DNA from: Flavobacteriaceae bacterium CG_4_10_14_3_um_filter_33_47
GTDB lineage: Bacteria; Bacteroidota; Bacteroidia; Flavobacteriales; Flavobacteriaceae
Assembly (NCBI GenBank): GCA_002784145.1
Contig: PFKE01000088.1
Coordinates: forward strand, 1 to 64,000
Direction: 5' to 3'
DNA length: 64,000 bases
Below are positions 2,516 to 27,963 of this stretch, in pieces. A model generated the notes under the pieces. The model ran no database searches, was not told where the DNA came from, and was given only the letters and a program-made list of their open reading frames with translations. Made by a program: the position numbers and the translations under genes. Every line of letters starts with the position of its first letter. The first letter of the stretch is position 1.

Positions 2516-2830
2516 ATGTTTCAAGAATTAGAACAAGACAATTTACAGGATGTTATTGCAAAAAATGATATGGTTGTTGTACAATTTTCTGCCACTTGGT
2601 GCGGTAATTGCAGAATCATGAAGCCAAAAGTAAAAAAACTAGCTTCAGAAAATGACACGATTATGTTTGTTGTTGCCGATGCTGAAAAATTTCCAGAATC
2701 TAGAAAATTAGCAACGGTTGATAATTTGCCAACGTTTGCAACCTTTAAACACGGAACCTTTATAAACCAAGTTCAAACAAATAAATTTGAAGTATTAAAA
2801 GACTTAGTAAATGAAGTTACCAATAATTAA
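2516..2830 (+). CDS. thioredoxin-family protein
   Basis: A 104-residue single thioredoxin fold without a signal peptide. The redox motif is WCGNC (C29, C32) rather than the classical WCGPC; the altered middle residues should shift its redox potential. A cis-proline is visible in DNLPTFATF. It sits 8 bases after the peroxiredoxin gene, and its last 20 bases overlap the next ORF, so the three are co-translated. I infer that it reduces the neighbouring peroxiredoxin. The fold and motif are certain; the partner is inferred from context. Confidence 0.9.
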   Translation: MFQELEQDNLQDVIAKNDMVVVQFSATWCGNCRIMKPKVKKLASENDTIMFVVADAEKFPESRKLATVDNLPTFATFKHGTFINQVQTNKFEVLKDLVNEVTNN

Positions 2831-3068
2831 ACATTTAACGCAGTTTATTGAAGAAAACGACGAAGATTTTCTTGAAGAAACCATAGAAACCCTAGAAGGT
2901 TTAACCGAAGTTTCCTCATTAAAAGACGAAGAGTTAGATGTTATTGGAGAATTAATCTCTAATATGTATGGAGCCATAGAAGTAAACAAAATGATTAAGC
3001 AAGGAACTCCAAAAAAAGAAGCACTAAATCAATTTATGAGCCGAGTTTTAGGAGCTATTGATAAATAG
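2811..3068 (+). CDS. DUF6952 family small protein
   Basis: An 85-residue acidic, helical protein with no cysteines and no membrane segment. It matches my recollection of DUF6952, a small family found behind peroxiredoxin/thioredoxin genes in Bacteroidota. It overlaps the thioredoxin ORF by 20 bases in another frame, which implies translational coupling. The function is unknown. Conserved linkage suggests a partner or regulator of the peroxidase system. The downstream terminator ends the operon here. Confidence 0.75.
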   Translation: MKLPIIKHLTQFIEENDEDFLEETIETLEGLTEVSSLKDEELDVIGELISNMYGAIEVNKMIKQGTPKKEALNQFMSRVLGAIDK

Positions 3069-3092
3069 ACAAATAACTATTGCATTAAAAAG

Positions 3093-3130
3093 AAGCCGTC
3101 TCAAAAATTAAAACACGAGGCGGTTTTTTT
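3093..3130 (+). terminator. terminator of the peroxiredoxin operon
   Basis: AAGCCGTCTC pairs with GAGGCGGTTT (two G-U pairs), followed by a T run. The same unusual stem sequence recurs after katG at 27641-27676. Confidence 0.8.
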
Positions 3131-3478
3131 ATTGCCTTTTATTTACGTCAAGCGTTTACACTTTTAAAAGCGAGGGCAAACTTAGAGGTTTGTTTAAAAA
3201 ACCCATAATTCTTACGTCTAAAATATTATTTGCCTTAAAAAGCTTGCTTCCTTTAACTGGTATTGTTGTTTTGGAAAAAAAATCTGTAGCTAAAAATGCT
3301 GGATTTATATTATTATGCAAGATTTGAAGATTTTGATGTGTTATATTACAACTGTACATTTAACCTCTAAGGCTTTAAGTCGCTTTATCCACGAAGTATC
3401 TACGGAGTATCTAAAGGGGAACTAGGACTCTGACTCGTCCTTGACCCATCGCAAAAAAGAAATCCTTGCACTGTAAAA
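3131..3478. other. intergenic, no supported gene
   Basis: The only ORF (minus strand, 67 codons, 3156-3359) has no recognisable family, no neighbour and a composition typical of chance ORFs. Short direct repeats (GAAGTATCTACGGAGTATCT) are visible. This looks like decayed DNA beside the island. Confidence 0.5.
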
Positions 3479-3850
3479 AATCCAACTAAAAAAACTAAAT
3501 ACAAACAAGTTAAAAAGAATTTTCAAAAAACACAGGCATACATTCATTTAACATTTGAAGATAGAATTTTATTTTTACAAGAGTTAGCTGATTTTATTGG
3601 TAGCTGGAGTTTTGCTAGGATCTTTTTTGAAGCTATTTATAAAATCCACTTTGACCCTAAAAGAACAAAGCAAACTGTAGATGAACAAGCTTTAGAGCAA
3701 ATTGTTTCAAGATTTGATATTTTTGCAGTTTGCATTGGCTTTTGTGCTTTTGGCATAAAAGTGAAGTGTGATTTTTGTTTTCATTGTGGTGACCAATTAA
3801 TTATTACTCAATTTAAATTCCTAATTGAAATCAAACAAGATGTTTACTGA
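3479..3850 (+). pseudogene. degenerate coding remnant, perhaps DUF3800-like
   Basis: An open frame of about 123 codons without a start codon reads like real protein: LTFEDRILFLQELADFIG, then IYKIHFDPKRTKQ and VDEQALEQIVSRF. That pattern resembles the middle of DUF3800-type proteins, but I cannot confirm it. After SRFDI the frame becomes cysteine-rich and unconvincing, suggesting a frameshift. No intact N-terminus is found. It lies just outside the left att-like repeat of the island. I regard it as a dead gene fragment. Confidence 0.35.
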
Positions 3851-3910
3851 CTGAACAAGCTATTGAACCTGTCGTTGAACCCAATATTTGTAGGTGTTGA
3901 GGTAATTTAG

Positions 3911-3949
3911 CGAGACCCTAATTTTTAAATTTTCTAGGGTCTCGATTTT
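3911..3949. terminator. strong bidirectional-looking hairpin
   Basis: A perfect 10-bp stem CGAGACCCTA / TAGGGTCTCG with an A/T loop is followed by ATTTTA. No intact gene lies on either side, so it probably ended the decayed gene to its left. Confidence 0.6.
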
Positions 3950-3996
3950 ATCTCGATTAGAATAAGATTTAATGAATAATTTGGTCTATCTGGAAA

Positions 3997-4037
3997 AGCA
4001 AAAACCCTGTTAATCATAAGATTTACAAGGTTTTGCT
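3997..4037 (-). terminator. imperfect hairpin left of the island, possibly the old tRNA-Ser terminator
   Basis: AGCAAAAACCCTGTTAATC pairs imperfectly with GATTTACAAGGTTTTGCT around a four-base loop. It lies directly outside the left copy of the tRNA 3'-end repeat. If the island were removed, this hairpin would sit just downstream of tRNA-Ser, so it may be the original terminator. Confidence 0.45.
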
Positions 4038-4053
4038 ACCATTTAGGATTTTT

Positions 4054-4069
4054 TCAGCGGAGAAAGAGG
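4054..4069. repeat. attR-like 16-bp direct repeat (distal island end)
   Basis: TCAGCGGAGAAAGAGG is identical to 13583-13598, which covers the last bases of the tRNA-Ser(TGA) gene. Beyond it the two sequences diverge. An exact copy of a tRNA 3' end about 9.5 kb from the tRNA is the usual footprint of a tyrosine-integrase element. Confidence 0.8.
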
Positions 4070-4317
4070 AACTATCCATAAACTTAATTGTACTGATTTC
4101 ATTGGGTTTTTGATAAGTTAATAATTAAATACGCACCGAATTACGCACCTCATGTTATTTATTAATCTAATTGTATTCAAAACACGCTAAATTATCCCAA
4201 AAAGCATAAAGTATTTTTCTCTAAATCAATCTCGATAGTTTACTTTTAATAAAATATATCAACTTTCAGTTTAGCTTTTAGCATTTTTTTAAACTTCTTT
4301 TTGAGAAATATTAATCC

Positions 4318-5076
4318 TTACTTGTGTTTAAATTCAAGACCCAAATGCCTAAATAATCTCCTTACCTTCATTCTCCAACTTGTCCTAGCCTCAATCCATG
4401 ATTTTCCACCTTCAGGAATTAGAATATTATCGTTAGAGTGCATGGGCTTAATTTTGCTTTGGTATACATTTCCATCAAATTTTAATAATAGGTAAGGATC
4501 TTGTGTTGGACAACCTTCATCATCCAAATCAAATATGCTTTGATGTTCCTTTTGGTTGAATTTCTCCTTTTTAGCTTTTAATCCTTCAAATAGGTCTGCC
4601 AATGAAATATGCTCAGTAATAAAATCTAAATCATAAATATCTTTATTTGCTGCCCTACTTGAACCAGTTATTAATTTAAACAGCCCAATATCTTTTGTAG
4701 TAACTAATCTTATTCCATCAATAGTTTCCGGGTCATCCATCATTTTCATATTTTGGATAACTTCAACTTTAATTATAGTGTCACAGGGTTTGGTCACCCA
4801 AAACCTTAAAAAGGTAAATTACTCACTTTCTTTGCCAGCTGGATAGTCAATACTTGATATGTTTTTTTCACCATAAAAATCAACGACTTCTTTTTGTATC
4901 TGCTCTAAATGTTTTATCCCAACAATTTCAGGGCAAAATAAATCAATATCTTGAGATTCTCTGTGACCAAATCGGATAGCCAAATTTGTACCACCTGCCA
5001 ATGCAAATTGCGATAATCCAGAAAGTTGCTGTAATTCTTTGATTGTGGTTAGGAGTACTGGAGAAACTGTACTCAT
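4318..5076 (-). pseudogene. AbiEii-type nucleotidyltransferase toxin, interrupted by one stop codon
   Basis: Two ORFs (5076-4819 and 4797-4318) are in the same frame, separated by a single TAA at 4821-4819. Reading through gives a continuous 252-codon protein (GKESE-stop-FTFLRFWVTKPCD). The first part holds the nucleotidyltransferase core LAGGTNLAIRFGHRESQDIDLF, with the GG...D-x-D pattern of AbiEii/AbiGii toxins. Members act as type IV toxins that modify tRNA and can abort phage infection. The DUF6922 gene ends 3 bases upstream and is the likely partner. GTG could restart translation at 4797, but that product lacks the active site. Probably inactive unless the stop is suppressed or is an assembly error. 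Confidence 0.8.
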
Positions 5077-5079
5077 TTG

Positions 5080-5367
5080 CTAAAACTTATAGCGTAAAAA
5101 AGTAGGTTTATTATAACGAGCAGCAACCATTTTACATATTTGGTTACTTATACGTTCTTTAGTATTTTTAAGTACTGAATATATTTCATTAGCTGTATAT
5201 ACTTCCTCAACAGAAGCAATATCTTTTTTAAAAGTTTTCTCATTAGTAGCCAATAACATTCTTGGGATGATAACTTCTTTATCTTTTTTAACAGATAATT
5301 TGTTAACATCCATATCCCAAAACACTTTTTTTGGAACTATATTAGCTATATTTACTTTGGTTTTCAA
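5080..5367 (-). CDS. DUF6922-like protein, partner of the AbiEii toxin
   Basis: A 95-residue protein with the VFWDMDVNKL opening typical of DUF6922, which commonly precedes AbiEii-type nucleotidyltransferases in Bacteroidota and probably plays the antitoxin role in place of AbiEi. Its stop lies 3 bases before the toxin start. The start is a TTG (KTKVNIANIV follows), with no ATG in a sensible place; the same frame stays open upstream through remnant sequence. It is intact while its toxin is broken. The family call is from memory of the N-terminal motif. Confidence 0.6.
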   Translation of the reverse strand: MKTKVNIANIVPKKVFWDMDVNKLSVKKDKEVIIPRMLLATNEKTFKKDIASVEEVYTANEIYSVLKNTKERISNQICKMVAARYNKPTFLRYKF

Positions 5368-5451
5368 AACTTCTTTATCTTCTTTTATACTATTAAGTAC
5401 ATTACAAATATATAAAATAGTATTTAATTGACTATGTGTAAAAACATTTCT

Positions 5452-6398
5452 TTAACTATTAAGAGCAATATCTATACCAATACCAGTAGTTTCTGAACTC
5501 TTATCAATATCATTCTCATTATCTTTTTAATTAAAAGAGTTATTATATATTTGGAAGTAATCTTTATGTTCAATAATTTATTTTATCAAAAAAATAATTA
5601 AGACTAAAAAAATATTTAATTAAATTTTGATTGTCATTATTATTGTTCAAGAAATTATTAAAATAATCTATATCAAGATTATTTGGAATATATTCTTTTG
5701 AAAATCTATTCTTAATAACATCAAAAATCAATTCTTGAATTGTTCCATTTGAATCAAAATATTTTTTAAAAAGTTCTTTGTTAGACAACTTATCATAATT
5801 AATTAAGTATTCACAAGATTCTTCTAATAATAAATTATGTTCATTCTTCTTAATTTCATATCCCGAAATTATAGCCTTTCTTAAAGTGAATTTATTTTCT
5901 ATAAATGGAGGTAAATTAATATTAAAAAATAAAGAGTCAAAAATCAGATATAATTCATTCAAATTTTTTTTGAAATCTATTTTCAAATTTTGAAGTTCTC
6001 TTTTTAAGATTAAAATTAAATCATTTAGTAAAACAATTCCTTTTATCTCGTTATAAGGATTTGAATATTTTGTCTTCCATAATTTAGCGTAATGGAATAA
6101 TACTAGCTTAATTTCAGATTCTGTATTATTTTCAATTAATTTTAATCCTATCCATTCAGTTAGTATTTTACTATTGGATTTCGATTAACACTTTCTTCTA
6201 GCCAATCGTTGTTGGTTAAATTCAATTGTTCTGATAAAATAATTTGAGTTAGATTTCCATTATTTTTTAATGAATCTAAAATCAAAAATTTATCTTGAAA
6301 ATCAATAGGCTTGTTTTTAATTAATTGTTCACTAATACGCCTTTAAATTTATTATATAATGTGTTTTTATCTTGATTGGTGAAAAATTTTGTTGACAT
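5452..6398 (-). pseudogene. unknown gene with several frameshifts
   Basis: The 138-codon ORF at 5570-5986 is only the longest piece. Its frame continues upstream to about 6084 (KSNSKILTEWIGLKLIENN). A different frame carries RISEQLIKNKPIDFQDKF and NDWLEESVNRNP further upstream, and a third starts at an ATG at 6398 (MSTKFFTNQDKNTLYNKF). Downstream, one more shift leads to IEHKDYFQIYNNSFN, an in-frame stop, then KDNENDIDKSSETTG up to 5452. Reassembled it would be about 310 residues, hydrophilic, rich in N, K, L and I, without membrane segments. I do not recognise the family. At least three frameshifts and one stop make it a decayed cargo gene. Confidence 0.6.
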
Positions 6399-6511
6399 TT
6401 AGTAGTCTTAAGTTTTGGTTATTAGTAAATTAATCTAATATTTATTTTAAAGTCGCTATTTTAATATTACAGACCGTTTTAGGCATCTATGCTATTAATA
6501 TCAAAAAAAAC

Positions 6512-6555
6512 ATTACAATTAAATTTGGTTTGTTTTGAACCATTTTAATTGTAAT
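6512..6555 (-). terminator. imperfect inverted repeat downstream of the 132-aa gene
   Basis: ATTACAATTAAATTTGG and its near-complement CCATTTTAATTGTAAT flank a 12-base loop. Position fits a terminator for the minus-strand gene at 6633-7031, although no clear T run follows. Confidence 0.35.
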
Positions 6556-6632
6556 TAGGGAAACTTAAAGATATGAAAATCGCTTAAAATAATGTAGAAA
6601 AACTTACAAAGAAATGCTGAAACATAATAATT

Positions 6633-7031
6633 CTAAAAAGGCATCATACCGTCTAACCAGTCTGATTGTTCAGAACATCTATAAATATCGGTTATTTCAC
6701 CTTCTGTGAATTCTACAAATATGGCATATTTATGACCAGAAGTATTGCCAGTGAATACAAAAACAGGTTGAGGATCATTGCACAAACAGCCTGTACAAAT
6801 ATTTGTTGAAAGATTAAGATATGTATCTCCTTTTTTACGAAATTCTTTAAAGATTTGCATTTGTTTATAGATAAACGCTGTTTTTTTCATGTCCTGGTAA
6901 TAGGCTTCTTCATCTAACAAATCGTTTAACTTATGGTAATCCATATTTTGGAAGGCATCAAGGACTTGTATAAGGAATGATTTTACCACTTCTTTTGTTG
7001 CGATTTTTTGAACTAGTTCTTGTACTTCCAT
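6633..7031 (-). CDS. hypothetical protein, 132 aa
   Basis: An intact cytoplasmic-looking protein. The first half is helical (VVKSFLIQVLDAFQNMDYHKLNDLLDEEAYYQD), resembling the opening of a SnoaL/NTF2-like fold. The middle has a cysteine cluster CTGCLCNDPQPVFVFTG that could bind metal, and the end is ITDIYRCSEQSDWLDGMMPF. I do not recognise the family. A degraded copy of its 5' part lies at 11090-11215 in the same orientation, so the helicase/RNase H pair is bracketed by the two copies. ATG start at 7031. Function unknown. Confidence 0.7.
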   Translation of the reverse strand: MEVQELVQKIATKEVVKSFLIQVLDAFQNMDYHKLNDLLDEEAYYQDMKKTAFIYKQMQIFKEFRKKGDTYLNLSTNICTGCLCNDPQPVFVFTGNTSGHKYAIFVEFTEGEITDIYRCSEQSDWLDGMMPF

Positions 7032-7158
7032 TGGATTTTAATTTTTTTTCTAAATTAATTATTTTCATTCATATAATTAGTACAATATAATTCTATTTAC
7101 AAAAACAGCTTTACGGTTTTACGTAACGCTTTAACATTTCATTATCTTACACTTTTTG

Positions 7159-7166
7159 TATCTTCG
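7159..7166 (+). promoter_or_regulatory. possible -7 box for the helicase gene
   Basis: TATCTTCG differs from the TAnnTTTG consensus at one base and lies 111 bases before the helicase ATG. It would give a leader of about 100 bases. No convincing -33 box is seen. Confidence 0.3.
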
Positions 7167-7276
7167 TTATTGAAGCCTTACTATGTTTAGCAGGAAGATA
7201 ATAGCAGCCCTAAGGTGACACATAACAGACAACAGCAAAATATTGAAATACCTTTTCATAATTACATTCCCATTAT

Positions 7277-10261
7277 ATGATTAAAAAAAATATAACAGCA
7301 CTATTAGGAAAGGCTATTAGAGAAGGTAAATATCTTAATATCACTTACAAAAATAAAATTGGAGAAATTACTCCTTTTTGGATTTGTATTTTGGATATTA
7401 ATGCAAACGATGAACTTTATGTCAATATGTTTAATGTTACTAAAGATGAACCTGTTTTAGACGTAAAAATTTTCATATCAAGCATACAGACAGCTGAAAT
7501 CTTAAAATTTTCACATTATGATGTAACTGACGAACTAATAAAAAAGATTGAAGAAGATGAGAGTTTGCAGAAATATAACTTTGATAGATATGACAACAAT
7601 ATTTTAAATTATTATTTAGAATGTTATAAAGCAAATAATAACCCATTTTTACACAAGATGCATTTAATTCCAAATTTGGATTTAAATACATTCATTAATA
7701 ACAATACAGCACCATTAACAAAGCAGCAGCAGTACCACATTATAAGAGACATTTATAACAATGATTATAATACATTCTATGATTACGAGCTTGCTTTATG
7801 TGAATTTTCAATTGACTTAGAATCAAGAGGTAAATTTGTTGTTGCGTTTAGAAAATTAACTTATGACCCTATTGGGAAAACACTTGAAATAGGAAATAAA
7901 ACACAATTCAATTCAAATTTTTACATTAAAGGCATAAAATATTCGCTGTCTTATTATACCGATTTAAGTCCTGTAGATTTTGAAACGTTATACCTTAAAG
8001 ACAAAATTGGTACTATCGCTTTATTAAAAGACTATTTTAAATCGGGAGAATTACCTAACACAAGACCAGAAATTGTAGTGTTGGGCTATGCCCAAATTGA
8101 TATTTCTGGTATTTACGAAGAGATCAATGTAGAACACTCGAAGAAAGAACTGCAAATTCCATTAAAAGCATTCTTTCAAAACCTAACCTTACTGGATAGG
8201 AAAAATAGAACAGAACCGTATATTGTTCTTTATGATAATAATGTCAATATAGACCAGCTCCGAACTGTTTATAATTCGTTAAAATACCCCATTACTTATG
8301 TACAAGGGCCTCCGGGTACAGGAAAAACGCAAACCATCTTAAATATTGTAGCTAATTGTTTGACGAACGAAAAAACCTTATTGATTTCTTCCAATAATAA
8401 CATTCCCATTGATGGCATCAAAGACAAATTGTATTTAGGAACCTTTAAAAATAAAGAGATTCTATTTCCAATGATTAGACTTGGAAATAATACCTGTGTA
8501 GCGGAAGCCTTAAAAAAGATAAAAGTGCTTTATGAGTTTGAAACAAAAGATGTTCCGAAAAAAGAACTCTTACTTAATTTAAAAGAGGAGTCAAAGGAAC
8601 GCAATAAAATACTACTTGAAAGATTAAAAAATTATGAAGACCGAATTGATTTAGAGCAAAATTTGGGGTTTATTAATGGTTTGCTATCAAAAGGTAGTTA
8701 TTGGGCACTTGAAGAAGAAAAAGCAGCACTAGAAAAACGACTCCATCAAATTCCCAAAACCACAGACGATAATGTTAAAGGCATTTTTGAGGTTATAAAA
8801 GATAATTACCAGTTACTTCAATATTTTTACTTTGAGTCTTTAAGATATATAAAACGCCTAAAAACAAAGGCTTATAGTGAGCTAATTGCCATAGCCTATC
8901 TTGAAGATGAAAAAGAGCAAGTAAAAGAATTTAATAAATGGATTGCAGATGATGTGAATTTAAAAAAATTTACCAGAGTTTTTCCCATTATACTTACCAC
9001 CAATATTTCAAGTAGAAAATTGGGAACGCATTTTAAATTTGATTTATTAACAATGGATGAAGCAGGGCAGTGTGATATTGCCACCAGTTTAATCCCTATT
9101 TCTAAATGCACAAATATGGTTTTAATTGGAGATACCAATCAACTAAAACCAATTGTAGTTTTTGAAGAAAGTAAGAATAACGAATTCTTAGATCAATTTA
9201 AGATTGATGCGCTTTATGACTACTACAACAACTCTATACTATCAGTATATAAAAATATAGATAATATTTCAAGAGATATTTTATTGAGCTACCATTATCG
9301 TTGTGGTGAAAAGATTATCAATTATTCTAATATGAGATTTTATGAGAATAGGTTAAATCTTTCGGCAATAAAAAACACAGGTACTTTAAAATTATTGGAT
9401 GTAACTAATGTAAATCATAAAAATAAAAACTCTCAGATAGAAGAGGCAATAGGCATTGTAAACTACATAAAAGACAATAAATTATCGGATGTTTTTATTA
9501 TTACACCTTTTAGAAATCAAGAAGAAGTTATAAATCATTATCTAAAAGAAGCTAAAGAAAATGGAAATATAAATTCTTCCGTAAGCTGTGGCACAATTCA
9601 TAAAATTCAAGGGCAAGAAAATAAAACTATAATAATTTCTACGGCAATTTCAAGACAAACAAGTCCAAGAACTTACGATTGGATAAAAAATAATAGCCAA
9701 TTGATAAATGTTGGGGTTACTAGAGCCAAAGAAAATTTAATTGTTGTAACCGATAGAAAGGCCATAGATATTTTGTCTAAAAAAGATGATGATTTGTATG
9801 CCTTGATTGATTATGTTGAAAAAAACGGAACCACTCAAATCTCACATAGTATCGCTAATAAACTCACAATTGGTTTTTCAAATAATTCTAAGTTTGAGGA
9901 TGAGTTTTATAAAACCATGCTGCATTACTGTACCATAAATGGTGTGCGTTTCGAGCGGAATATAAAAATAGTTGATGTGTTTCCAGAAGAAAGGCATAAT
10001 ACTCTAGTAAATAAAAAAGAGTTTGATGCTGCTATTTTCCAAGGACTTGAGCCTAAAATTATTTTTGAAATAAATGGGATTGAGCATTATAAAAATAAAC
10101 GCCGTATGGCATCGGATAAAATTAAAATGGAATTATTAAAAGGAAAACAAGTCCTATTTCTATCTATTCCAAATCAGTATGTGAAACATTATGAGTTTAT
10201 AATAGAATTAATTAAAAAGTTTAAAGGTGATATTTATCAAAAAACATTGTTTGACTATTAG
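7277..10261 (+). CDS. SF1 helicase (DNA2/NAM7-like) with C-terminal nuclease-like domain
   Basis: A 994-residue multidomain protein. Residues 1-80 look like a small beta domain, WYL-like by eye (KYLNITYKNKIGEITPFWI). The helicase holds Walker A GPPGTGKT at 344-351, Walker B with DEAGQ at 594-598, then LSYHYRCGEKI, a GTIHKIQGQENK motif and INVGVTRAKENL. The last ~110 residues contain EFDAAIFQ (D917) and IIFEINGIEHY (E931), an arrangement like the Vsr/DUF559/DUF2726 branch of PD-(D/E)xK nucleases. Such helicase-nuclease fusions are frequent in anti-phage islands, so a defence role is likely but unproven. RNase HI follows 61 bases later on the same strand. All helicase motifs are intact. Confidence 0.85.
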   Translation: MIKKNITALLGKAIREGKYLNITYKNKIGEITPFWICILDINANDELYVNMFNVTKDEPVLDVKIFISSIQTAEILKFSHYDVTDELIKKIEEDESLQKYNFDRYDNNILNYYLECYKANNNPFLHKMHLIPNLDLNTFINNNTAPLTKQQQYHIIRDIYNNDYNTFYDYELALCEFSIDLESRGKFVVAFRKLTYDPIGKTLEIGNKTQFNSNFYIKGIKYSLSYYTDLSPVDFETLYLKDKIGTIALLKDYFKSGELPNTRPEIVVLGYAQIDISGIYEEINVEHSKKELQIPLKAFFQNLTLLDRKNRTEPYIVLYDNNVNIDQLRTVYNSLKYPITYVQGPPGTGKTQTILNIVANCLTNEKTLLISSNNNIPIDGIKDKLYLGTFKNKEILFPMIRLGNNTCVAEALKKIKVLYEFETKDVPKKELLLNLKEESKERNKILLERLKNYEDRIDLEQNLGFINGLLSKGSYWALEEEKAALEKRLHQIPKTTDDNVKGIFEVIKDNYQLLQYFYFESLRYIKRLKTKAYSELIAIAYLEDEKEQVKEFNKWIADDVNLKKFTRVFPIILTTNISSRKLGTHFKFDLLTMDEAGQCDIATSLIPISKCTNMVLIGDTNQLKPIVVFEESKNNEFLDQFKIDALYDYYNNSILSVYKNIDNISRDILLSYHYRCGEKIINYSNMRFYENRLNLSAIKNTGTLKLLDVTNVNHKNKNSQIEEAIGIVNYIKDNKLSDVFIITPFRNQEEVINHYLKEAKENGNINSSVSCGTIHKIQGQENKTIIISTAISRQTSPRTYDWIKNNSQLINVGVTRAKENLIVVTDRKAIDILSKKDDDLYALIDYVEKNGTTQISHSIANKLTIGFSNNSKFEDEFYKTMLHYCTINGVRFERNIKIVDVFPEERHNTLVNKKEFDAAIFQGLEPKIIFEINGIEHYKNKRRMASDKIKMELLKGKQVLFLSIPNQYVKHYEFIIELIKKFKGDIYQKTLFDY

Positions 10262-10322
10262 CGGCAAAATGATAATAGGTAAATTTATGAAACAACAAAT
10301 TATAAAAATAATTTTTTAAAAT

Positions 10323-11030
10323 ATGAGCTGGTATGACATACCTGAAATTGATCTTTTCTCGGATGGAGGAGCTGAACCTAACCCTGGAAAGGGTGGGTTT
10401 GGCGTGATATTACGATATAAGGGTAGACAAAAGGAATTTTCTGAGGGCTATGAGCTAACGACTAACAATAGAATGGAGTTAATGGCTGTGATTTTTGGTT
10501 TAGAAAAAATTAAGACTAAGGCAAAAGTTACCGTTTACTCGGATTCCAAATATGTTGTTGATGGCATTGAACAAGGATGGGCAGTTGGTTGGGAAAGAGA
10601 TAATTGGATTAAGAAAAAAGGTAATTTGGTGTTCAATAAGGATTTATGGCAAAGATTATTGGATGTTATAGATAAACATGAAGTGACTTTTAACTGGGTA
10701 AAAGGACATGATGGCCATATTGAAAATGAACGTTGTGATTATTTAGCTAATAATGGGATCAATTCTGAACATAAAATTAAGGACGAAGGGTACTTAGAGT
10801 ATCTAGAAAATATTGAGTACTACCAAGAACAGAAAATAGAAAAAGAAGGTGATGTGTGCAGAAAGTGTGATGTACCAGTAGTAATTAAACGCCCTAAAAA
10901 ACGTAAAGTCAAACAAAACCAAAACTACTATTATGAGTATTATCTCTTTTGCCCAATTTGTAAAACAATGTATATGGTAGAAGATGCAAAACGAACCCTT
11001 GACCAACAAGGCAACACATTATTCGAATAA
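10323..11030 (+). CDS. rnhA: RNase HI with an added zinc-ribbon-like C-terminus
   Basis: Residues 5-145 form a complete RNase HI domain that cleaves the RNA strand of RNA-DNA hybrids. The acidic catalytic set is present: D in LFSDGG, E in NNRMEL, D in VYSDSKY and D in NERCDYLA. The remaining ~85 residues carry two CxxC pairs (CRKC and CPIC) separated by a basic, tyrosine-rich stretch, resembling a zinc ribbon. Ordinary RNase HI ends near residue 155, so the tail is an addition. It follows the helicase by 61 bases with no visible terminator between. A chromosomal housekeeping rnhA probably exists elsewhere, making this the island version. Confidence 0.88.
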   Translation: MSWYDIPEIDLFSDGGAEPNPGKGGFGVILRYKGRQKEFSEGYELTTNNRMELMAVIFGLEKIKTKAKVTVYSDSKYVVDGIEQGWAVGWERDNWIKKKGNLVFNKDLWQRLLDVIDKHEVTFNWVKGHDGHIENERCDYLANNGINSEHKIKDEGYLEYLENIEYYQEQKIEKEGDVCRKCDVPVVIKRPKKRKVKQNQNYYYEYYLFCPICKTMYMVEDAKRTLDQQGNTLFE

Positions 11031-11089
11031 AAATACTTTCAGATAAAAATATATTCTGAGAAAAGATATATGTTAAATGGGAATTGGCC

Positions 11090-11215
11090 GAATCATCAAA
11101 CAATTCTTTTAACTTATTATAATGCATATTTTGAAGGCTTCAAGGACTCGAATAAGGAATGATTTTACTTTTTTTGAACTAGTTCTTGTGCTTGTATGGG
11201 ATTAATAATTTTAGT
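11090..11215 (-). pseudogene. degraded 5' copy of the 132-aa gene at 6633-7031
   Basis: About 125 bases align with the first third of the 6633-7031 gene and its upstream edge (shared blocks include AAGGAATGATTTTAC and TTGAACTAGTTCTTGT). A deletion of about 20 bases breaks the frame, and the rest of the gene is missing. Same orientation as the intact copy. Confidence 0.75.
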
Positions 11216-11228
11216 TTTTTATAGGTGT

Positions 11229-12479
11229 TTATAAATTAAATGCTTTTTCCATCAATTCTATTTCTCTATTAGGAACACCTATTTTAATAGCCATTTCTTT
11301 CCAAGAAGCAACTGCTGTAAAAACCTCATCTAAAATAGCATTCATTTGGTTTTCATCTAAACGGAAATATATGCCTACACTTTTTGCTAAATCATAATCT
11401 AACGCATTGTTATCCATATCTATATTTAAGGCTAAACCATCTTTATCTATAGACGGGTTGAGGTCGTAAGCTGGAGAGAGTTCCCAACCATTATTTGTAA
11501 TTATAAACCCATGATTGCGTAAATGATCATCGGTATTGGAAATGGCAATATTAAAAACAATACGGCGCCAAAGTTGCTCGAGATTACTTTCTATATTACG
11601 ACCATGGTTTTGGATGAACTCTGCCAATTCTAAATAACTTGCTTGATGATCTCTAATTTTGACCTCGTTATTACCAGTCATGGTCATAGCCGAAGCGAAA
11701 TGAATTCTTTCGCCATTTTCTCTATCGAAGCGTTTTGTAAAAAATGTATTGTAATTTCCGGTAACCTTTTGGATTTTACATTCGGACATGTTTATACCTG
11801 CTTTTAATGCCAATTGATATGCTAGATATTCCCAAGCAGCTTTGTCTGTGGTATCATTTTTTGCAGGAAATTTTGCTATCCACAAATTTTTATCGTTATC
11901 TAAAATATTTGCTTTGGGTCTGGCACCACCCAAAGAGGAACCAGGTGCCATTAAAATAGCTAGCCATTGTCTTGCTTCATCATTTTCGGTATCATTTTCA
12001 AAGTTTTGAGCAGCATCTTGAAGTTCACGTATTGATGACCAAGGTGGTGTTGGAGACAGATTGTTATTATCTAAAAATGGACCATCTAAATCTGTTTTAA
12101 ATCTTAATGCACCCATTCGGCTTTCATCATACACACCGAGTAAAAAGTCTATTTCATATAGTGTTTTTGCTGTTTCTCCAGTTACAGCTGCTTCTTGAGA
12201 GGCTCTTCTTTTCATTAATGTACGTCCCCAGGTATCCGGCATACTGTCTAAAAAGACACCAAAATTTTCTTTATTATTTGGATATTGTGGACCACCATAA
12301 AACTGAATATCTGGATCTAATAGCATTTGGTTTTTAGATTTGATCCAGTTTTTATCATACTCAAAACTAAAGGCCTTTTTTCCTTTAGCATTTAGTGCTG
12401 AAAGGATGCCTATTAATTCGGGTTCTTCCATTGGTTTCCAATGCGCGAAGACGTATATGTCTAATTTCCCAGTTGCCAT
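11229..12479 (-). CDS. hipA: HipA-family serine/threonine kinase toxin
   Basis: A 416-residue HipA-type protein with HipA_N (roughly 5-110) and the kinase-like HipA_C. Visible motifs are SSLGGARPKA (nucleotide-binding loop), LWIAKFPAKND (lysine), the catalytic NTDDHLRNHG and the metal-binding SPAYDLNPS. Known HipA proteins phosphorylate a translation factor or tRNA synthetase and induce dormancy; some such loci also act in defence. Length fits family members of 410-440. The HipB-like gene ends one base upstream, so they form one operon. It lies in the tRNA-Ser island. Family and intact active site are clear; the target is unknown. Confidence 0.93.
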   Translation of the reverse strand: MATGKLDIYVFAHWKPMEEPELIGILSALNAKGKKAFSFEYDKNWIKSKNQMLLDPDIQFYGGPQYPNNKENFGVFLDSMPDTWGRTLMKRRASQEAAVTGETAKTLYEIDFLLGVYDESRMGALRFKTDLDGPFLDNNNLSPTPPWSSIRELQDAAQNFENDTENDEARQWLAILMAPGSSLGGARPKANILDNDKNLWIAKFPAKNDTTDKAAWEYLAYQLALKAGINMSECKIQKVTGNYNTFFTKRFDRENGERIHFASAMTMTGNNEVKIRDHQASYLELAEFIQNHGRNIESNLEQLWRRIVFNIAISNTDDHLRNHGFIITNNGWELSPAYDLNPSIDKDGLALNIDMDNNALDYDLAKSVGIYFRLDENQMNAILDEVFTAVASWKEMAIKIGVPNREIELMEKAFNL

Positions 12480-12480
12480 T

Positions 12481-12768
12481 TTATAATAAATCTAAATCTT
12501 GTAATTTTCTTCCAAACTCATCATCCGCTGCTAGTTTTAAGAAATCATCTTGCAAGCCTAACACTCTCAATACATTGAAATAGGCACCTATAGCAACGCT
12601 TGGGTTGCCTTTTTCAATTTGATATAAAGTCATTCTTACGATATCAGCTCTTTCAGATACTTGAACTGCTGTTAATTTTCGTCGCTTTCTTGCTAATTTG
12701 ATGTTTTCACCTAACTGTTCAAGAATTACCAAGTGCTTTGGAAATAGTATTTGCTTTTTCTTTCCCAT
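12481..12768 (-). CDS. hipB: HipB-like XRE-family antitoxin
   Basis: A 95-residue DNA-binding protein with a helix-turn-helix (LARKRRKLTAVQVSERADIV, then MTLYQIEKGN) at about residues 20-60. It precedes hipA by one base and should neutralise HipA and repress the operon. Two copies of GTATA-N6-TATAC lie immediately upstream, around a promoter -7 box, which fits autoregulation. The C-terminal tail (DEFGRKLQDLDLL) is the sort of flexible degron-like end seen in HipB proteins. Assignment rests on fold, size and position. Confidence 0.9.
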   Translation of the reverse strand: MGKKKQILFPKHLVILEQLGENIKLARKRRKLTAVQVSERADIVRMTLYQIEKGNPSVAIGAYFNVLRVLGLQDDFLKLAADDEFGRKLQDLDLL

Positions 12769-12779
12769 AATGCAATAAT

Positions 12780-12826
12780 GTATATATAATTATACAAATA
12801 TAGCAATAATGTATAAAATAATATAC
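12780..12826 (-). promoter_or_regulatory. hipBA promoter with two operator-like sites
   Basis: GTATA-N6-TATAC occurs twice, at 12780-12795 and 12811-12826, each within a longer direct repeat beginning GCAATAATGTATA, spaced 31 bp. Between them the minus strand carries TATATTTG (12802-12795), an exact TAnnTTTG -7 box. One site would cover the -33 region and the other the transcription start, so bound HipB would block the promoter. Confidence 0.6.
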
Positions 12827-12898
12827 GTTTTTATGTATTTTTTTAAATTCATTTGTCTTTAGAATTATTATTAAAGGCTATTAGATTGAAAGATTCTC

Positions 12899-13309
12899 TT
12901 AATCTGCTTCTAACTCGATTGCCATAATGATGTTCAAGTTCTGATGCAGATAAGTCATTATTTCTAAAATTGTTGTTTTTTTCTCTGGATTTTCATCAAA
13001 ACAATGTTGTTTTAAATACAATGGTGTAATGTTCTCTTCTTGCAATTCCCTAGTTTTAATTAATTCGATATATTTTGATTCTATGCTCGATTTGAGAGTA
13101 TTTAAATATTCTTTCAAAGAAATTTCATTGTCAATTCTTAAAGTATTCCTTAACTGATTCGTTTTTTCCCAACGGTCTCTATTCATATATTTTGAAGTGG
13201 AAAATGTGGTTTTTGTGGAACCAATATATATTTTGCCATATATAGCAGTTTCACCTGATTCATTTTTTTTGTCGCCTTTAACGTAGAATTTTACTTTTAA
13301 TTTTTTCAT
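12899..13309 (-). pseudogene. truncated tyrosine integrase (N-terminal arm-binding domain only)
   Basis: The 136-codon ORF matches the start of Bacteroidota tyrosine integrases: a beta-rich arm-type DNA-binding domain (KVKFYVKGDKKNESGETAIYGKIYI, TKTTFSTSKYMNRDRWEK), then a helical linker and TTILEIMTYLH, where the core-binding domain normally begins. Full-length relatives are about 400 residues; the core-binding and catalytic domains are absent and the final ~12 residues look unrelated. It reads away from the tRNA-Ser gene and sits between it and hipB, the usual place for an island integrase. It cannot catalyse recombination. The deletion probably accompanied arrival or rearrangement of hipBA. 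Confidence 0.72.
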
Positions 13310-13390
13310 TTCTTTTAGTATTAATTATTTGAGCAATAATACTTTTGAAAGTTTTCGAAGAGAATAAGAAGTTGGCAATTGTCAACTTTT

Positions 13391-13438
13391 GGTACCCTGA
13401 TGATTGTCATAATTTCATAGGGTACCATAAAGGGTACC
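13391..13438. repeat. three GGTACCCT/AGGGTACC repeats near the integrase stub
   Basis: GGTACCCT at 13391-13398 and its inverse AGGGTACC at 13419-13426 and 13431-13438. Three copies of one 8-mer between an integrase gene and its tRNA target could be arm-type integrase sites. A near-perfect palindrome (AAGTTGGCAATTGTCAACTT) lies just to the left. Confidence 0.4.
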
Positions 13439-13561
13439 ATTCAAATCAGATACAAAGTGTAAAATGAAAATATAAGTCATTAAACATTTTGTAACTATTT
13501 AAGCTAGATACCCAGTAAAATATAGGATTTGTAGATGAGAATGAATTTCTATGAATGTAAA

Positions 13562-13583
13562 AAGCCCTCTTATGAGGGCTTAT
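13562..13583 (-). terminator. tRNA-Ser terminator
   Basis: Reading the minus strand, AGCCCTC-ATAA-GAGGGCT is followed by TTTTT. It lies immediately 3' of tRNA-Ser and, by the island model, arrived with the element. Confidence 0.7.
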
Positions 13584-13598
13584 CAGCGGAGAAAGAGG
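13583..13598. repeat. attL-like 16-bp direct repeat (tRNA end)
   Basis: Same 16 bases as 4054-4069. It overlaps the 3' end of tRNA-Ser, so integration restored an intact tRNA. Confidence 0.8.
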
Positions 13599-13671
13599 GA
13601 TTCGAACCCCCGGAGGTGTGACCCTCAACAGTTTTCAAGACTGCCGCAATCGACCACTCTGCCATTTCTCC
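13587..13671 (-). tRNA. tRNA-Ser (anticodon TGA)
   Basis: The minus strand folds as a class II tRNA of 85 bases with acceptor GGAGAAA/TTTCTCC, anticodon stem-loop CAGTC-TTGAAAA-CTG giving anticodon TGA, a long variable arm and the T-loop GGTTCGAATCC. CCA is not encoded. The gene is intact and serves as the integration site of the island to its left. Confidence 0.95.
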
Positions 13672-13787
13672 AATAGTGCCAAATCAAGTTTGTACTGATT
13701 GCGGGTGCAAATATAGAAACCTTTTTTGTATCTAAAAAACCTTTTTTCTTTTTTTTATTTTCTTCTTTTTAATTCATTTTTTGACTG

Positions 13788-25437: not shown

Positions 25438-27618
<2,181 letters not shown>

Positions 27619-27640
27619 TTATTTGGGGTTTTATGCGTAA

Positions 27641-27676
27641 AAAGAAGCCGTCTCAAAAACTTGAGGCGGTTTTTTA
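27641..27676 (+). terminator. katG terminator, near-copy of the one at 3093
   Basis: AAAAAGAAGCCGTCTC and GAGGCGGTTTTTT form the same stem seen after the peroxiredoxin operon, with a shorter loop. Confidence 0.8.
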
Positions 27677-27963
27677 TGTTTTTTTCAATCTTAAAGTACT
27701 GCTATTTTATATATATGATTTAAAGACTGCTATATATAAATTTAAAACGTTACAATCAGTGTCCAACTGCAAAAAAAATATTAAAGTGAGCCACTTAAAA
27801 CGGAAAACATTTAATCAATTAAAAACTAACTACTGCATAAGTTCTAAAACGATTCTTAATATTTAATACTGCCCTCTCCTTCATCAAATGATGGCATCAA
27901 CTTGTCTTCTCTTTTACATACAACCATTAAAGCATATTAAAAATTAGCCCAATAACTTTTATG
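27677..27963. other. intergenic, no supported gene
   Basis: About 290 AT-rich bases between the katG terminator and the DEAD-box promoter. The 77-codon ORF at 27633-27866 runs through the terminator and has no protein-like character. I see no RNA gene. Confidence 0.5.

Follow-up and report, generated by a model that had tools for sequence, protein, structure and literature searches.

Composite islands and CIMEs, such as the ICESt1-related elements, form when elements accrete in tandem at a shared attachment site and parts are then deleted (PMC5704250). The composite island CGI48 of Shewanella putrefaciens occupies tRNA-Trp and is stabilised by HipAB (PMC8978831), and the 10K island of Riemerella anatipestifer lies at tRNA-Arg, is bounded by 53-bp repeats and carries a functional integrase (PMC6764341). 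Islands at tRNA genes with perfect repeats are routinely scored as one mobile element. A search of the literature returned no paper combining Flavobacteriaceae, tRNA-Ser, an integrase and a genomic island.

Here, we analyse such a locus in a stretch of 64,000 nucleotides (hereafter the window) of contig PFKE01000088.1 of Flavobacteriaceae bacterium CG_4_10_14_3_um_filter_33_47. The 9.5-kb segment at its tRNA-Ser(UGA) gene is likely the remnant of at least two elements, lying beside the stump of a third and produced by accretion and subsequent deletion.

Results and Discussion

Core repeats and the ends of the island

The 16-mer TCAGCGGAGAAAGAGG had been reported to occur once in the 3' end of tRNA-Ser and again 9.5 kb away, and both copies were located, each on the plus strand, at 4054-4069 and 13583-13598. 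The whole genome (a 2.94-Mb draft in 164 contigs) contains exactly these two copies, even when two mismatches are allowed, and shuffled sequence is expected to yield a mean of 0.27 at up to three mismatches; the repeat is therefore not a common genomic word, a possibility that had been named as fatal to the island. The direct repeats surround foreign genes, one of them lies in the 3' end of a tRNA gene, and a relative lacking the island (genome G004, of the same genus) has a single core copy at the join, as is typical of a tRNA-targeted genomic island. The tRNA gene has a TauE-type gene alongside, an arrangement conserved in relatives. No close relative carrying the same island was found among the genomes compared. 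The features of the two ends and of the left flank, where B denotes the element at the near (tRNA) end, A the class of the far end and C the element beyond it, are as follows.

3728..4053, minus strand: truncated near end of element C, comprising terminator, arms and integrase start, with 88% identity to the whole element of G004
3782-3784: start codon of the element C integrase, of which only the first 19 codons are in the window
3911-3944: GGGTCTCG arms of element C
4054..4069, plus strand: distal core copy (16 bp), followed by AACTATCC as at other A-class far ends
4130..4149, plus strand: arm-type repeats TACGCACCGAATTACGCACC of an A-class far end; identical 20-mer in G172 and G203
12852..12962, minus strand: P-loop ATPase gene, tail only, joined in another frame to the integrase stub
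12953..13309, minus strand: integrase B stub, arm-binding N-terminus only, of the clade with GGTTACCC arms at tRNA-Ser
13391..13438, minus strand: arm-type repeats of the element B near end, a GGTACCC pair at 12-bp spacing and one inverted copy
13583..13598, plus strand: tRNA-proximal core copy (16 bp), within the tRNA-Ser 3' end
13586..13671, minus strand: tRNA-Ser(UGA), the integration target

Arm repeats match at the two ends of most tRNA-Ser elements

Examination of 400 Flavobacteriaceae genomes revealed a copy of the tRNA-Ser end with no tRNA body following it in 65, a number that includes some chance matches according to a reversed-pattern control. Ends were extracted only from genomes with both core copies on one contig. 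Many of these islands bear, at each end, a direct repeat of 6-10 bp with a spacing of about 12 bp, and the position and pattern of these repeats suggest that they are integrase arm-binding sites. Of 21 comparable pairs, 17 have near and far repeats that are reverse complements of each other; 20,000 permutations gave a mean of 4.9 and no more than 14, a figure which overstates the precision because related genomes are not independent. This matching recurs in separate classes (GGTGACC, GGTTACCC, GTTGACAGT, ATCCCCACA, GGTGCGTA and, in G004, GGGTCTCG), and the arm class tracks the integrase clade. A softer test, which accepted any 6-mer shared within 350 bp, had a high chance rate and was given no weight. 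Across the Flavobacteriaceae, tRNA-Ser is a hotspot shared by six or more integrase classes, each with its own arm sequence.

The window departs from this pattern, with GGTACCC repeats at the near end versus TACGCACC at the far end. Arms of the latter type go with the integrase clade of G172, G284, G409 and G299; in G172 a far-end block with the identical 20-mer is paired with GGTGCGTA near arms. The integrase stub is 46-48% identical to the GGTTACCC-clade integrases of G290, G185 and G365, and its clade shares only about 23-30% identity with that of the TACGCACC-arm (G172) integrases. Since the stub belongs with one clade and the far arms with another, where most comparable elements have matching ends, it seems that the ends derive from two elements. 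The same arm class is not present at both ends, as it would be in a single element; instead, three classes meet at one tRNA gene (B near, A far and C near), as in a composite, accreted island. The preliminary description is thus borne out for the tRNA-Ser insertion and for the reduction of the integrase to a stub, but a single element with its own integrase is not supported.

Strict matching failed in four further cases. Two of these (G091 and G201b) are tandem arrays with an intermediate core, and in G205 the near arms are unrecognisable. The fourth, G314:C11:290686-296353, has near GTTGAC arms and far AGGGTAAC arms 5.7 kb apart, and may be a second candidate hybrid. Tandem arrays are present today at tRNA-Ser in G091 and G201. 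In G032, G307, G313 and G204, tRNA-Ser cores lie about 177-185 bp apart directly after the tRNA gene, sometimes several in a row (for example, L058:5472-5656); these would represent either minimal scars or a very small element.

The integrase stub ends at an ATPase gene tail

The open reading frame that contains the stub (12899-13309, minus strand) matches a single domain, Arm-DNA-bind_5, in agreement with the earlier observation that the integrase beside the tRNA consists of the arm-binding N-terminus alone; a full-length relative also carries the SAM-like and catalytic domains. Homology to full-length integrases stops at approximately position 12,953, where the ATPase tail begins out of frame; the G004 element encodes a 203-aa P-loop ATPase whose final 37 residues are 62% identical to this tail. 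The fusion at approximately 12,953-12,962 looks like a deletion junction, and the coincidence of the two boundaries suggests that the integrase gene was cut short by a deletion and not by gradual erosion. The cargo and the ATPase tail may derive from A, B or a C-like element.

A search for the missing integrase C-terminus had been proposed, and in the rest of the assembly it detected no C-terminal part of the same integrase. The only other matches were to an integrase at tRNA-Arg, which is intact, and to a fragment of an unrelated recombinase. The latter, on contig C142, was considered as the missing half and ruled out, as it is the C-terminal part of a different recombinase. The intact integrase (G000:C75:1-1542, L245), from the same genome and of the same family as the stub, lies beside tRNA-Arg(UCU) at a contig end. 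No whole GGTACCC element with both ends was present in the 400 genomes, so that the far end of element B is deduced from its clade. GGTACCC pairs in six other genomes received no support as cognates of element B, the match to the stub nearby being negligible.

The left flank is the stump of a third element

The sequence adjoining the distal core, the apparent left flank, consists of the initial 326 bp of element C and stops after 19 integrase codons. In G004, element C is whole at the same tRNA gene, with a 421-aa integrase, a far core 31.6 kb away and matched GGGTCTCG arms at both ends. The G004 equivalents of 3728-4069 and 13580-13727 adjoin each other next to tRNA-Ser, with a single 16-mer at the join. 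The preliminary description had anticipated a relative in which tRNA-Ser abuts the hairpin at 3997-4037 with a single 16-mer, and G004 has precisely this arrangement, but the flank in question proves to be the end of a mobile element. G004 was therefore discarded as an example of an unoccupied site. The site of G005, in which a transporter gene follows the tRNA, is probably truly empty, and the same type of terminator lies past the far core of the G001 element. An apparent 40-bp deletion in the G001 tRNA-Ser is in reality an assembly gap (NN).

In five relatives, one of another genus, the DUF6952 gene (2811-3068 in the window) is convergent with katG (25453-27618). In the window it faces the tRNA side instead (regions compared, 3069-3728 and 27618-27961), and this difference in order points to a chromosomal rearrangement breakpoint between 3091 and 3728. 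The breakpoint adjoins a short ORF remnant at approximately 3540-3722.

Cargo of the island

Between the two ends, the following features were distinguished.

4318..5076, minus strand: AbiEii-like nucleotidyltransferase pseudogene, with one in-frame stop at about 4819
5080..5367, minus strand: DUF6922 ORF, adjoining the AbiEii pseudogene
5570..6400, minus strand: decayed ORF with frame changes; decayed sequence spans 5430-6400
6633..7031, minus strand: small ORF, NTF2-like by eye, with no significant family match
7277..10261, plus strand: UPF1/SEN1-like SF1 helicase of 994 aa, a candidate defence gene
10323..11030, plus strand: RNase HI with a cysteine-containing tail at the C-terminus; inspection shows the catalytic acidic residues
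11229..12479, minus strand: HipA-like kinase toxin, full length, NTDDH motif present
12481..12768, minus strand: HipB-like antitoxin, intact

Intact and dead genes coexist, as previously noted: HipBA and the helicase are whole, whereas AbiEii is interrupted by a stop, so that no intact AbiE type IV toxin-antitoxin system is present, and another ORF has decayed. The helix-turn-helix hipB gene lies directly upstream of the full-length hipA kinase gene, and the pair is predicted to function as a toxin-antitoxin system. No intact integrase or relaxase was found in the island. Both type I restriction genes and AbiE genes occur in related tRNA-Ser elements. The view of the segment as a stranded, decaying island with a defence flavour is thus supported, the defence role of its cargo, and the selection earlier proposed to act on its surviving genes, being putative. 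The 5' end of the small NTF2-like gene (6895-7046) is duplicated at 11078-11212 with 72-90% identity, and the duplicates flank the helicase-RNase HI block, as if this had been inserted or duplicated as a unit.

The helicase is of the UPF1/SEN1/SMUBP2 SF1 type. Its frame is open over all 994 aa and colinear with 27 homologues; homologues 64-79% identical and colinear are found at 40 other Bacteroidota loci. An RNase HI gene with the same tail lies beside it in the window and, in two gene orders, at three distant loci among these 40 (L084:3957-4688, L092:5247-5951 and L117:5244-5948). Neighbours of the helicase loci include McrBC, Gabija-like, MADS, DISARM-type, AbiE, type II restriction, Vsr and GmrSD genes, a list which, drawn up without a matched control set, is only suggestive of defence-gene enrichment.

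Pfam assigns only AAA_11/AAA_12-type domains to the helicase. With PADLOC, its core scores against both MkoC (1e-42) and MkoA of Mokosh, the match being confined to that core. Mokosh pairs such a helicase with a kinase or phospholipase-D-type nuclease domain, whereas neither was detected in the 994-aa protein, which has another C-terminal domain, possibly PD-(D/E)XK-like, and sometimes an adjacent RNase HI. The AlphaFold model (mean pLDDT 59) was too poor for a fold search, although the C-terminal domain is among its locally confident stretches. We offer as a speculative and rather doubtful idea that the helicase with its nuclease-like C-terminus, sometimes with the tailed RNase HI, is an undescribed defence system acting on RNA-DNA hybrids or phage transcripts, carried across the Bacteroidota by such elements and fixed here by the loss of matching ends. 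In its favour are the adjacency of the two genes in the window and at 3 of the 40 homologous loci, and the many restriction or defence genes among the neighbours.

Proposed history of the locus

We infer the following order of events. Element C would have integrated first at tRNA-Ser, after which an A-class and then a B-class element would have entered the regenerated tRNA end, the older elements being pushed outward. A deletion would then have fused the beginning of integrase B with a distal position in the interior, with loss of the B far end, the A near end, the A integrase and the transfer genes, and a separate rearrangement would have cut C at 3728. What would remain is the B near end, a cargo block (HipBA, RNase HI, the helicase and a broken AbiE) and the A far end. 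As recognition of both ends by one integrase is not expected, this block would be locked in place, save for ordinary homologous recombination, and by analogy with CGI48, HipBA may stabilise it further.

The mixed ends might instead have been produced by homologous-recombination replacement, or by insertion of one element into another, in place of tandem integration followed by deletion. AbiE and HsdMSR modules are indeed common to elements of different att class (G172 and G004), which would suit such an exchange, but the fusion of stub and ATPase tail is simple and out of frame, as expected from deletion, and tandems are directly visible in other genomes. We consider this route somewhat unlikely, and it would alter only the route, the hybrid ends standing either way. 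A single element with an unusual pair of ends, whose integrase once tolerated different arms on each side, would account for the perfect direct repeats of the core and for an insertion that is precise relative to G004; nevertheless, the matched arms of 17 of the 21 comparable elements, the tracking of arm class with integrase clade and the distance of the far-end clade from that of the stub (only about 23-30% identity) render it improbable. An assembly artefact joining pieces of different origin, which a 164-contig draft and the deviant gene order left of 3091 might bring to mind, is very improbable, given that an assembler would not be misled by a core of only 16 bp and that the junctions of the far end with C and of the near end with the tRNA are each structured like real att sites.

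Comparison with known systems

For the composite history that we favour, the kind of event, accretion and deletion at a shared attachment site, is already known (PMC5704250). What is new is the end-matching test, together with the evidence that perfect terminal repeats can bound a hybrid island. Comparing the arm repeats of both ends is cheap, separates whole elements from patchworks and can be used on other islands. The locus also illustrates the way in which toxin-antitoxin and helicase genes can be trapped as a block in a chromosome, and the distinct arm sequences of the at least six classes make the arm-binding specificity of these integrases directly testable.

As a tRNA-targeted Flavobacteriales island of about 10 kb, with a tyrosine integrase beside the tRNA, the segment resembles the Riemerella 10K island, but the latter has tRNA-Arg, 53-bp repeats and a functional integrase in place of tRNA-Ser, 16-bp repeats and a stub. 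With CGI48 it shares a composite structure at a tRNA gene and a HipAB pair; however, CGI48 still excises and its HipAB has been tested (PMC8978831), whereas here there is no working integrase and HipBA is only predicted. The CIMEs are similar in that elements at one attachment site stack, decay and lose their integration genes while keeping att sites (PMC5704250). A CIME, however, lacks integration and transfer genes and retains the attL and attR of one element, while the outer ends of this island belong to two integrase classes, for which reason cis-mobilisation by one integrase is not expected here.
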